From NCBI RefSeq assembly GCF_007035645.1, contig NZ_AP019632.1:1-64000 (forward strand): a stretch of DNA of 64,000 bases, given 5' to 3'. Of the stretch, positions 101 through 26,664 are shown one piece after another. Position 1 is the stretch's first letter; each line of letters begins with the position of its first letter. The notes under the pieces were generated by a model. It did not search any database, was not told where the DNA came from, and saw only the letters and a list, made by a program, of their open reading frames with translations. The stretch comes from Enterobacter asburiae (lineage in GTDB: Bacteria; Pseudomonadota; Gammaproteobacteria; Enterobacterales; Enterobacteriaceae). The position numbers and the translations under genes were made by a program.

Positions 101-1495
101 GTGTCACTTTCGCTTTGGCAGCAGTGTCTTGCCCGATTGCAGGATGAGTTACCAGCCACAGAATTCAGTATGTGGATCCGCCCGTTGCAGGCGGAACTGA
201 GCGATAACACGCTGGCTTTGTATGCGCCAAACCGTTTTGTGCTCGATTGGGTAAGGGATAAGTACCTTAATAACATCAATGGACTGCTGAACGATTTCTG
301 CGGGTCAGATGCCCCGCAGCTGCGCTTTGAAGTGGGCACAAAGCCGGTCACCCAAACCGTTCGTGAAACCGTGAACGTAGCAGCGCCTGCTCAGGCCGCG
401 CCTGCTCCGGCCCCTCGCGTCGCACCCGCTCGTCAGGGCTGGGATAATGTCCCTGCACCGGCTGAGCCAACCTACCGCTCTAACGTTAACGTGAAACACA
501 CGTTCGATAACTTCGTTGAAGGTAAGTCGAACCAGCTGGCGCGCGCGGCGGCTCGTCAGGTTGCTGATAACCCTGGTGGGGCCTACAACCCGCTGTTCCT
601 TTACGGCGGCACGGGTCTGGGTAAAACGCACCTGCTGCATGCGGTGGGTAACGGCATTATGGCGCGCAAGCCCAATGCCAAAGTGGTGTATATGCACTCC
701 GAGCGCTTCGTTCAGGACATGGTAAAAGCCCTGCAAAACAATGCGATCGAAGAGTTTAAACGCTACTATCGTTCCGTTGACGCGCTGCTCATCGATGACA
801 TCCAGTTCTTTGCGAATAAAGAACGATCTCAGGAAGAGTTTTTCCACACCTTCAATGCCCTGCTGGAAGGCAATCAGCAGATCATTTTGACCTCGGATCG
901 TTATCCAAAAGAGATCAACGGCGTTGAAGATCGTCTGAAATCCCGCTTCGGCTGGGGCCTGACCGTGGCGATCGAGCCACCGGAGCTGGAAACCCGCGTC
1001 GCGATCCTGATGAAGAAAGCCGATGAAAACGACATTCGCCTGCCGGGCGAAGTGGCGTTCTTCATTGCCAAGCGTCTGCGCTCCAACGTGCGCGAGCTGG
1101 AAGGGGCACTGAACCGCGTTATCGCCAATGCCAACTTCACCGGTCGTGCGATCACCATCGATTTTGTGCGTGAAGCGCTGCGAGATTTGCTGGCATTGCA
1201 GGAAAAACTGGTCACTATCGACAATATTCAAAAGACGGTGGCTGAGTACTACAAGATCAAAGTGGCAGATTTACTGTCTAAACGTCGTTCCCGCTCGGTG
1301 GCGCGTCCGCGTCAGATGGCGATGGCGCTGGCAAAGGAGTTAACCAACCACAGTCTGCCGGAAATCGGGGATGCGTTTGGTGGCCGTGACCATACGACCG
1401 TGCTGCACGCTTGTCGTAAGATTGAGCAGTTACGCGAAGAAAGCCACGACATAAAAGAAGATTTTTCCAATTTAATCAGAACATTATCATCGTGA
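101..1495 (+). CDS. dnaA: chromosomal replication initiator DnaA
   Basis: DnaA binds 9-mer boxes at oriC, oligomerises with ATP, melts the origin and helps load DnaB. The product is 464 residues (E. coli 467). The N-terminal DnaB-interaction domain is followed by a variable Ala/Pro-rich linker, an AAA+ domain with Walker [10 protein letters not shown] and Walker B LLIDDIQ, and a C-terminal helix-turn-helix with [18 protein letters not shown] at 101 is chosen because a GGAG lies just before it and the protein then begins MSLSLWQQ as in E. coli; an in-frame GTG at 89 would add four residues and overlaps the GGAG. dnaN follows after four bases, forming the conserved dnaA-dnaN-recF(-gyrB) cluster. 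Confidence 0.98.
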
Positions 1496-10970: not shown

Positions 10971-11069
10971 GTGGCCCGATAACGAACTCGCCTGATGGGT
11001 GTTCGGGGGCGCAAAGGCCTGTCCATGGTGGAAGGCTACAATTTCTCGCTGATTTCAGGAGTTTTATTT
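10971..11069 (+). ncRNA. ibpA 5'UTR, ROSE-type RNA thermometer
   Basis: The last hairpin pairs CTCGCTG (11045-11051) with CAGGAG (11056-11061) across an ATTT loop, leaving one bulged G opposite the Shine-Dalgarno. This bulged-G arrangement is the mark of ROSE elements, which melt on heat shock and free the ribosome-binding site. The upstream part of the leader, with GCCTGTCCATGGTGGAAGGC able to pair on itself, would form an additional helix. Confidence 0.8.
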
Positions 11070-11480
11070 ATGCGTAACTTCGATCTTTCTCCGCTATACC
11101 GTTCTGCAATTGGTTTTGACCGCCTGTTTAACCATTTAGAAAATAACCAAAGCCAGAGCAACGGCTACCCTCCATACAATGTTGAGCTGGTTGACGAAAA
11201 TCACTACCGCATCGCTATTGCCGTCGCCGGTTTTGCAGAAAACGAACTGGAGATCACCGCGCAGGACAACCTGCTGGTGGTGAAAGGTTCCCATACGGCC
11301 GAGCAGAAAGAACGTACCTATCTTTATCAGGGCATCGCCGAGCGCAACTTTGAACGCAAGTTCCAGTTAGCCGAGAACATTCATGTTAAAGGCGCGAACC
11401 TGGTTAACGGCCTGCTGTTTATCGAACTGGAACGTGTGATTCCGGAAGAGAAAAAACCGCGTCGTATCGAAATTAACTAA
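11070..11480 (+). CDS. ibpA: small heat-shock chaperone IbpA
   Basis: IbpA is a cytosolic alpha-crystallin-type holdase that binds unfolding proteins and keeps them accessible to DnaK and ClpB. The 136-residue product starts [20 protein letters not shown] as in E. coli (137). It carries the alpha-crystallin domain from about residue 35 to 125 and a C-terminal tail with the IEIN motif after positively charged residues. ATG 11070 is fixed by AGGAG at 11057-11061; an upstream in-frame start at 10995 lies inside the leader. Expression is set by the sigma-32 promoter and the thermometer. ibpB follows after 136 bases. Confidence 0.97.
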
Positions 11481-25671: not shown

Positions 25672-26118
25672 TTACACGGCACAAAAAAGGCGGTGCGTCA
25701 TCCGCGGTTCGTCCGAGACCAGCGTAAAACCCGCCCGATTATAAAACCCGTAGGCACTGTCCGGCGCGTGGGTATTCAGAAAATCAAACCAGATGCTGGC
25801 ATCGGCCATCACCACGGTTAAAAGCTGTTTGCCAATGCCCAGCCCGCGGCACTTCTCGCTGACGTAGAGATGGCGAATACGTCCGGCGCGCGGCTGCTGG
25901 CTGAACGGATCGCGGTTGAGGCCGCATACGCCGACCAGCTTGCCGTTAAGAAACGCGCCCAGCAGCTTTTCTCCCGGTGCGTTAAAGCGGTTCTCGCCGC
26001 GCTGCCAGTTCTCTTCCAGCCTGCGCAGCATGTTGAAATTCAGTGCGATACTTTCAGCCTTCAGGGCGATATACCCCGGTTCATCCGGTGTGACGGGCTC
26101 AATTAACAGACGCGACAT
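25672..26118 (-). CDS. GNAT-family N-acetyltransferase
   Basis: The 148-residue protein has the acetyl-CoA motif A (IRHLYVSEKCRGLGIGKQLL, residues 81-100) and the FYNRAGF motif B region (near 125). The acceptor is unknown. GAGGGAAT precedes the ATG. It lies downstream of the tisB terminator, and the hairpin at 26138-26161 separates it from tisB. Confidence 0.8.
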   Translation of the reverse strand: MSRLLIEPVTPDEPGYIALKAESIALNFNMLRRLEENWQRGENRFNAPGEKLLGAFLNGKLVGVCGLNRDPFSQQPRAGRIRHLYVSEKCRGLGIGKQLLTVVMADASIWFDFLNTHAPDSAYGFYNRAGFTLVSDEPRMTHRLFCAV

Positions 26119-26137
26119 AGCATTCCCTCGTTATTAA

Positions 26138-26161
26138 AGAGGGGCGGTTTCCCGCCCCTCT
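26138..26161 (-). terminator. hairpin ending the tisB transcript
   Basis: A perfect 10-bp stem (AGAGGGGCGG/CCGCCCCTCT) with a TTTC loop. Read on the minus strand it is followed by TTAATAA, a short U run. It lies 21 bases after tisB and 20 before the GNAT start. Confidence 0.65.
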
Positions 26162-26182: not shown

Positions 26183-26272
26183 TTACCGAAGGAATTTCAG
26201 GACAGCATCAAGCAGTTGCAGTACTGCAACAATGAGTTTGAGGATAAGTATCACCATATCCACTACGCTCAT
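26183..26272 (-). CDS. tisB: TisB, SOS-induced membrane-depolarising toxin peptide
   Basis: TisB inserts in the inner membrane, collapses the proton-motive force and promotes persister formation after DNA damage. The reading frame is 29 codons, exactly the length of E. coli TisB, and shares the core ILILKLIVA, LQLLDAVLK and a charged C-terminus (FLR here, YLK in E. coli); it is a single amphipathic helix. AAAGGAG lies six bases before the ATG. Its Shine-Dalgarno is locked in a hairpin, a LexA box lies about 200 bases upstream, and the antisense RNA gene istR is on the other strand, the full arrangement of the E. coli locus. Confidence 0.95.
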   Translation of the reverse strand: MSVVDMVILILKLIVAVLQLLDAVLKFLR

Positions 26273-26278
26273 ACGCGT

Positions 26279-26298
26279 CTCCTTTTGGTTAAAAGGAG
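26279..26298 (-). promoter_or_regulatory. hairpin sequestering the tisB Shine-Dalgarno
   Basis: On the minus strand CTCCTTTT pairs perfectly with AAAAGGAG across an AACC loop, burying the whole ribosome-binding site six bases before the tisB ATG. In E. coli tisB the ribosome-binding site is also closed and ribosomes first bind an upstream standby site. Confidence 0.85.
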
Positions 26299-26343
26299 CA
26301 CGATGCTGGCGTACCTTTCCGCCGCCTGTTGCCAGCACCTGGA

Positions 26344-26361
26344 TTGACGTAACACAGTGTG
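26344..26361 (-). promoter_or_regulatory. IstR-1 antisense target in the tisB leader
   Basis: The plus-strand 18-mer TTGACGTAACACAGTGTG here is identical to 26590-26607, the second base onward of IstR-1. The tisB mRNA therefore contains its exact complement, giving an 18-bp duplex about 70 bases upstream of the start codon, where the standby site lies in E. coli. Confidence 0.85.
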
Positions 26362-26461
26362 CTCACTTCAGGGGTTAAGGCACTGACGGCACCACCCGTT
26401 TCAGCCAGGACTTCGTTGCGCCGGTAAAACTGCGGCCCCCTCGCTCACTGCGAACACCCTC

Positions 26462-26491
26462 AGTATAGATAAACACTGTATGCATGAACAG
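26462..26491 (-). promoter_or_regulatory. tisB promoter with LexA (SOS) box
   Basis: CTGTATGCATGAACAG at 26476-26491 fits the LexA box CTG-N10-CAG. On the minus strand a TATACT -10 lies at 26467-26462, so LexA would cover the spacer and -35. The transcript would start near 26455, giving a leader of about 180 bases. Confidence 0.85.
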
Positions 26492-26498
26492 TATTTTT

Positions 26499-26527
26499 TG
26501 GACAAAATCAGGAAGGCGATCCATAAT
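26499..26527 (+). promoter_or_regulatory. candidate IstR-2 promoter
   Basis: TGGACA (26499-26504) and CATAAT (26522-26527) are spaced by 17 bases, eight bases from the LexA box. A transcript from near 26534 to the istR terminator would be about 130 bases, close to the roughly 140 of E. coli IstR-2. Confidence 0.55.
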
Positions 26528-26553
26528 CAAAAGCGTCAAAATCCGTGCCGGAA

Positions 26554-26582
26554 TTGCGCGTTCGTCTTCGATCGCGTATACT
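26554..26582 (+). promoter_or_regulatory. istR-1 promoter
   Basis: TTGCGC at 26554-26559 and TATACT at 26577-26582 are spaced by exactly 17 bases. The start would be G26589, giving a transcript beginning GTTGACG, as IstR-1 does in E. coli. Confidence 0.8.
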
Positions 26583-26588
26583 TTTTGC

Positions 26589-26664
26589 GTTGACGTAACA
26601 CAGTGTGTTCTGCGGCGACCAACCGCAAAACCCTGATAAAAACCTCGCTCCGGCGGGGTTTTTT
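26589..26664 (+). ncRNA. istR: IstR-1 antisense RNA, antitoxin to tisB
   Basis: The small RNA is about 76 nt (75 in E. coli). Its 5' part carries the 18-mer complementary to the tisB leader. The 3' end is a terminator: CCTCGC-TCCG-GCGGGG (26643-26658) followed by six T. It prevents ribosome loading on tisB mRNA in uninduced cells. It is transcribed divergently from tisB and toward ivbL. Confidence 0.9.

Follow-up and report, generated by a model that had tools for sequence, protein, structure and literature searches.

The closest described relative of the locus analysed here is the tisB/istR type I toxin-antitoxin locus of E. coli, whose mechanism is set out in PMC7708055, PMC9040746 and PMC11264685; the statements cited in this text are taken from excerpts of the papers. 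The E. coli promoter hexamers were given as TTGCGC/TATACT for IstR-1 and TGGACA/GATACT for IstR-2, and the tisB -10 element as TATAAT (PMC11264685). Lysine 12 of E. coli TisB was reported to be essential (PMC11449926). A further frame, tisA, was found in >99% of E. coli loci, with no evidence of translation, and its implications were called unknown (PMC11264685). tisB/istR has been reported in Citrobacter, Salmonella, Escherichia/Shigella and one Enterobacter cancerogenus strain at 80-90% thresholds (PMC9040746), and PMC11449926 also aligns TisB of Klebsiella pneumoniae and states that TisB occurs only in Enterobacteriaceae.

Within the window (the whole stretch of 64,000 nucleotides analysed) we identified a locus that we take, with a probability of about 97%, to be the Enterobacter orthologue of E. 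coli tisB/istR, with a mode of action carried over from E. coli. The identification is supported by the agreement of curated TisB and IstR models, synteny, antisense complementarity with co-changes, a LexA-type box and a predicted hairpin that hides the ribosome-binding site (RBS). The sequence comparisons show the parts of the window locus, their order, the LexA-type box and the complementarity, together with its co-changes across genera.

Beyond tisB, on the same strand, lie GNAT-type, EamA-type and EmrD-type genes (EmrD: NF008654, 670 bits). Beyond istR, on the plus strand, come IvbL, which scored just under its cut-off (58.2 bits, cut-off 60), and a 562-codon frame taken as ilvB. Its 562-aa product shares 99% identity with the proteins of several Enterobacter species, and the nearest named relatives are Enterobacter. 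The annotation of an E. coli record runs in the order emrD, ysdE, tisB, ivbL, ilvB. The sample for comparison consisted of 82 sequences, made up of 80 ilvB-relative loci, one E. coli locus and the window; because the 80 were the best 80 of 401 ilvB relatives, the sample leans to near relatives. Counts were made on 64 of these sequences and 18 were left out: 13 of the 82 gave no BLAST hit to tisB or istR within the stretch compared, two (L014 and L016) have a locus end that cuts the tisB leader, and three (L017, L019 and L038) encode a TisB with arginine at residue 12 that was missed by the frame pattern. The loci compared include Kosakonia, Lelliottia, Leclercia, Raoultella, Phytobacter, Trabulsiella and Superficieibacter, seven genera that are not named in the excerpts of PMC9040746 and PMC11449926, and that other papers may name. 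Between istR and ivbL, 16 of the 69 loci with both matches carry 0.9-4.5 kb of extra DNA (L004-L009, L012-L014, L016, L017, L025, L027, L033, L039 and L072), and the window carries none.

The initial annotation had pointed to a 90-bp frame with the length and core of TisB, and the curated models agree with it: the 29-codon frame scored 39.2 bits against PF13939 (cut-off 25), 63.9 bits against TIGR04459 (cut-off 38) and 55.6 bits against NF011340 (cut-off 53), and provided the single TisB match in the whole 4.77-Mb genome. No other family matched the peptide at E 0.1 or better in the Pfam and NCBIfam scans. The accompanying remark that the toxin is too short for most gene finders does not give the full account, as the RefSeq annotation of the listed E. 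coli records includes tisB. The window peptide keeps D5, K12, Q19, D22 and K26, and K29 is replaced by R. The toxin gene and the element behind it are:

26183 to 26272, minus strand: tisB, 29 codons plus stop, MSVVDMVILILKLIVAVLQLLDAVLKFLR
26134 to 26160, minus strand: GC-rich hairpin 3' of tisB, GAGGGGCGG-GAAA-CCGCCCCTC-TTTAA, seen in folds (printed for 13 of the 64 loci, E. coli included)

The downstream hairpin was not picked up by the terminator scan; judged from its predicted fold, it is possibly the 3' end of the tisB mRNA. A GNAT-type acetyltransferase gene (region 25672-26160) starts 20 bases beyond this hairpin on the same strand, so that read-through from the SOS promoter is conceivable.

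On the opposite strand, the Rfam istR model RF01400 matched over its whole length (127.8 bits, E 9.3e-26, model positions 1-130, 26534-26664). The divergent RNA gene described in the initial annotation, with its two promoter elements, 76-nt product and terminator, stands as IstR-1, and a second, nested RNA that had gone unnamed, IstR-2, has a promoter of its own, which adjoins the LexA box and points to the position where the Rfam match begins. The RNAs and promoters of the locus are:

26554 to 26582, plus strand: IstR-1 promoter TTGCGC-17-TATACT (-35 at 26554-26559, -10 at 26577-26582, 17-bp spacer)
26589 to 26664, plus strand: IstR-1 antitoxin RNA, 76 nt, start placed by homology
26499 to 26527, plus strand: IstR-2 promoter TGGACA-17-CATAAT, the one site found in the promoter scan, with 0.6 expected in shuffles
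26534 to 26664, plus strand: IstR-2, about 131 nt, full-length RF01400 match, start placed from the model
26638 to 26664, plus strand: terminator common to IstR-1 and IstR-2, an 11-pair stem and T run, from the terminator scan
26462 to 26467, minus strand: tisB promoter -10 TATACT, read from the sequence and the E. coli alignment
26455, minus strand: presumed tisB transcript start, placed by alignment to the E. coli mRNA numbering (PMC7708055)

Both IstR-1 hexamers, TTGCGC and TATACT, occur 17 bp apart in 34 of the 64 loci; the -10 alone is TATACT in 51 and TATAGT or TATAAT in 12 others, and in L070 it was read at the wrong copy. The 77-nt IstR-1 stretch folds 3.6 standard deviations better than shuffled sequences (z = -3.6). 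A candidate second istR copy in the same genome (G000:C1:3661867-3661963) was rejected: it scored 31.8 bits against a gathering score of 45 and covers a terminator-like hairpin and the end of a frame that we take to be proS. Comparable short terminator-like istR matches have been described in E. coli (PMC11264685). Elsewhere in the window, Rfam matches above the gathering score were found for ROSE_2, an RNA thermometer (11005-11076, plus strand), and AsdA, an antisense RNA of dnaA mRNA (602-682, minus strand).

RF01400 scored above its cut-off in 47 of 294 genomes drawn from the family; matches at E 0.001 or better were present in 92, and those beyond the 47 were weak. None of the 14 control genomes had a match above the cut-off. 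One control genome, Synechococcus elongatus, showed a weak istR match. Among complete E. coli genomes, 4312 of 5426 matched a 681-base query, 4081 of them at a coverage of at least 80%, counts that fit the reported absence of the locus from phylogroup B2 (PMC9040746).

A LexA box had also been claimed ahead of tisB, and the claim holds at the level of sequence, backed by genome-wide and cross-species counts:

26474 to 26493, no strand assigned: LexA-type box TACTGTTCATGCATACAGTG (minus-strand reading, 26493-26474), from a pattern scan with genome and cross-species counts

The box overlies the place of a tisB -35 element and stops five bases short of the IstR-2 -35. By this position one LexA dimer, if bound there, could affect both promoters, and by sequence this one box stands at the tisB and the IstR-2 promoter alike. 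Taken alone, the window does not set the LexA pattern apart from chance, as 43 of 100 shuffles contain a match at ≤2 mismatches; the support for the box comes from the wider comparisons. Genome-wide, 11 distinct sites, the tisB box among them, carry TACTGTN8ACAGT (16 rows, five sites being listed on both strands), compared with 2 rows for the reversed control. As the neighbour of each box we took the longest frame lying no more than about 260 bases away. At eight of the ten other sites this neighbour is of SOS type, namely RecA, RecN, two UmuD-type proteins, YebG, a ydjM-type hydrolase, Cho and SulA; the YebG frame is below its cut-off (106.2 vs 161). We assume that the hydrolase is YdjM, with the SOS link that we associate with this name. 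The two other box-adjacent frames (L086 and the 74-aa L096) had no NCBIfam match at 1e-20, and the 74-aa frame is presumably DinI. In the cross-species comparison, 61 of the 64 loci have CTGTN8ACAG upstream of tisB, and the three exceptions differ from it by one, one and two of 12 positions.

The link between the two RNAs is an 18-mer, TTGACGTAACACAGTGTG, that occurs twice and exactly, at 26344-26361 and 26590-26607. Only 0.02 matches are expected at ≤3 mismatches, and none of 100 shuffles contained two. The copy on the tisB side marks the target:

26344 to 26361, minus strand: IstR-1 target in the tisB mRNA leader, presumed ribosome standby site, from the exact 18-nt repeat and the pairing

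In the window, the duplex between the IstR-1 5' end and the tisB leader spans 22 positions, with 20 Watson-Crick and 2 G-U pairs. The target lies 71 nt from the tisB ATG, so the pairing site is far upstream of the RBS. Over 64 loci and 22 columns, 1379 of 1408 cells are standard pairs (1291 Watson-Crick and 88 G-U) and 29 are mismatched, none of the latter belonging to the window locus. Parsimony on the ilvB tree (one FastTree tree, midpoint-rooted) gave three, one and one pair-keeping co-changes at columns 6, 11 and 15, respectively, and one further co-change at column 9 that breaks the pair (a double change in two loci). Columns 0, 10, 12, 17, 18, 19 and 21 show one-sided variation, often to G-U, and column 20 is mixed. 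In a permutation control on columns 0-17, 1129 of 1152 cells were paired, whereas 2000 shuffles averaged 1110.3 and never exceeded 1116; since shuffling ignores relatedness, the tree-based co-changes are the better evidence. E. coli IstR set against the window target gives one mismatch (column 6) and three G-U pairs over the 22 positions. At column 4, the fifth base of the duplex, an A-C mismatch is present in 15 of the 64 loci (for example L023, L026, L049, L071 and L077), and is common to Kosakonia, Phytobacter, Superficieibacter and others.

Two structural elements are assigned to the tisB leader, and AAAAGGAG within the first of them stands directly upstream of the tisB frame (26183-26272, minus strand):

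26273 to 26301, minus strand: RBS-hiding hairpin GUGCUCCUUUU-AACC-AAAAGGAG-ACGCGU, predicted fold with the Shine-Dalgarno sequence (AGGAG) paired
26382 to 26409, minus strand: 5' structure of the presumed +42-like mRNA, GCUGA (26405-26401) and UCAGU (26386-26382) as pseudoknot stem 2 partners

The predicted hairpin would sequester the tisB RBS. The mean unpaired probability of the window Shine-Dalgarno sequence is 0.02 by prediction, and in predicted 37-nt folds the sequence is fully paired in 61 of the 64 loci and four-fifths paired in the other three, despite differing stem letters. The stem 2 partners, in the pseudoknot register of the mutant pairs in PMC7708055, are kept in all 64 loci, as GCUGA with UCAGC (33) or UCAGU (31); the window has UCAGU and consequently an outer G-U pair where E. 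coli has G-C. The 265-nt leader-plus-gene RNA folds 2.7 standard deviations better than shuffles. The target has a mean unpaired probability of 0.47 compared with 0.38 for the whole RNA (E. coli, 0.48 vs 0.37), and it is partly paired in the window's minimum-energy fold and so not clearly single-stranded. Accessibility was computed for 60 of the 64 loci; the target is more open than the RNA average in 51 of these and no more open in nine. The distance from target to ATG ranges from 67 to 141 nt over the loci, and among the longer leaders, those printed (L029, L030, L033 and L084) fold their extra bases into hairpins. Such natural variation in leader length, pairing and TisB residues provides material for testing the standby and antisense models.

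The initial annotation held that all parts of the E. coli locus are present. This stands for TisB, IstR, the promoters, the box and the pairing; the start codon of tisA, however, is absent. In E. coli, tisA is a 37-codon frame whose ATG lies within GTTATGTCAA of the IstR target, and the window has ACG at this position, so that tisA is not a reading frame there. The ATG is missing in 50 of the 64 loci; in the 14 loci that have it, the frame runs from 12 to 46 codons and is 37 codons long only in E. coli. Because the 50 loci without the ATG have TisB and the IstR/target pair, tisA is not counted among the defining parts of the system. The start-codon base that differs falls in column 6 of the pairing, where both RNAs change together in every case but L034, and across genera the tisA start comes and goes with the IstR pairing sequence. 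This cross-genus pattern favours a cause at the RNA level, and tisA is probably not a gene. We consider it likely, if well short of certain, that two things hold together: that tisA is a non-gene whose start codon exists in E. coli only because the IstR pairing sequence reads GTTATGTCAA, and that the target-ATG distance can vary freely (67-141 nt) since the added bases are taken up in hairpins. If so, the >99% conservation of tisA inside E. coli would reflect RNA constraint and low divergence, which would provide a cross-genus answer to the remark left open in the excerpts of PMC11264685.

By analogy with E. coli, we infer transcription, processing to a +42-like mRNA, ribosome standby and membrane action for the window locus. 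In undamaged cells, LexA would keep the tisB promoter off, and constitutive IstR-1 would block ribosome standby by pairing, through its first ~22 nt, with a site in the tisB leader 71 nt ahead of the start codon. The RBS itself would be closed in the predicted hairpin. Upon DNA damage, LexA would be cleaved and tisB mRNA would come to outnumber IstR-1; ribosomes would then load at the standby site and open the RBS hairpin, and the amphipathic 29-aa peptide would enter the inner membrane and dissipate the proton motive force.

A locus with these parts could also be a decayed or silent tisB/istR remnant that is recognisable in sequence and without function. Absence or loss does occur in the family, as in the 13 of 82 sequences lacking a tisB or istR match in the stretch compared and in the independent losses reported for E. 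coli B2 (PMC9040746). However, TisB, the promoters, the LexA-type box, the 22-position pairing, the Shine-Dalgarno hairpin and the IstR terminator are intact in the window, and close Enterobacter relatives keep the same parts, so that we regard a remnant as very improbable. Still less probable is a different small membrane-peptide type I system, similar to dinQ/agr, zor/orz or shoB/ohsC, that merely resembles tisB. A small peptide, far-upstream antisense pairing and a processed leader are a layout common to such systems (PMC7708055, PMC3567139), but here the TisB equivalog models and the istR Rfam model are above cut-off, the place beside ivbL-ilvB is that of E. coli tisB, and the peptide scans brought up no competing family. 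We retain the reading of the locus as a tisB/istR orthologue, the elements of which look intact and the mode of action of which is taken from work on E. coli.

To our knowledge, zor/orz and shoB/ohsC are not under SOS-box control. They are like tisB/istR in having a small toxic peptide, an antisense RNA that acts far upstream of the RBS and a processed mRNA, and are non-homologous to it (PMC7708055). Comparison with E. coli tisB/istR-1, as proposed in the initial annotation, revealed the same layout: a 29-aa toxin, the same IstR-1 hexamers (TTGCGC/TATACT) and IstR-2 -35 (TGGACA), a LexA-type box between the divergent genes, an antisense site with 20 Watson-Crick and 2 G-U pairs of 22 in both, a predicted sequestered RBS, and emrD and ivbL-ilvB nearby. 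The window differs from E. coli in the length of IstR-1 (76 nt vs 75, counted from sequence), in the target-ATG distance (71 nt vs 103), in lacking the tisA start codon, in the IstR-2 -10 (CATAAT vs GATACT), in the outer pseudoknot pair (G-U vs G-C), and in the EamA- and GNAT-type genes that stand between emrD and tisB. In Citrobacter, Salmonella, Klebsiella and other Enterobacteriaceae the layout is the same throughout the 64 loci, the window and one E. coli included, and these loci differ in target-ATG distance (67-141 nt) and in istR-ivbL spacing. By its sequence, the window locus is an ordinary, complete-looking member of this already known system, and it indicates that Enterobacter has both the SOS toxin TisB and its antitoxin RNA in apparently intact form.
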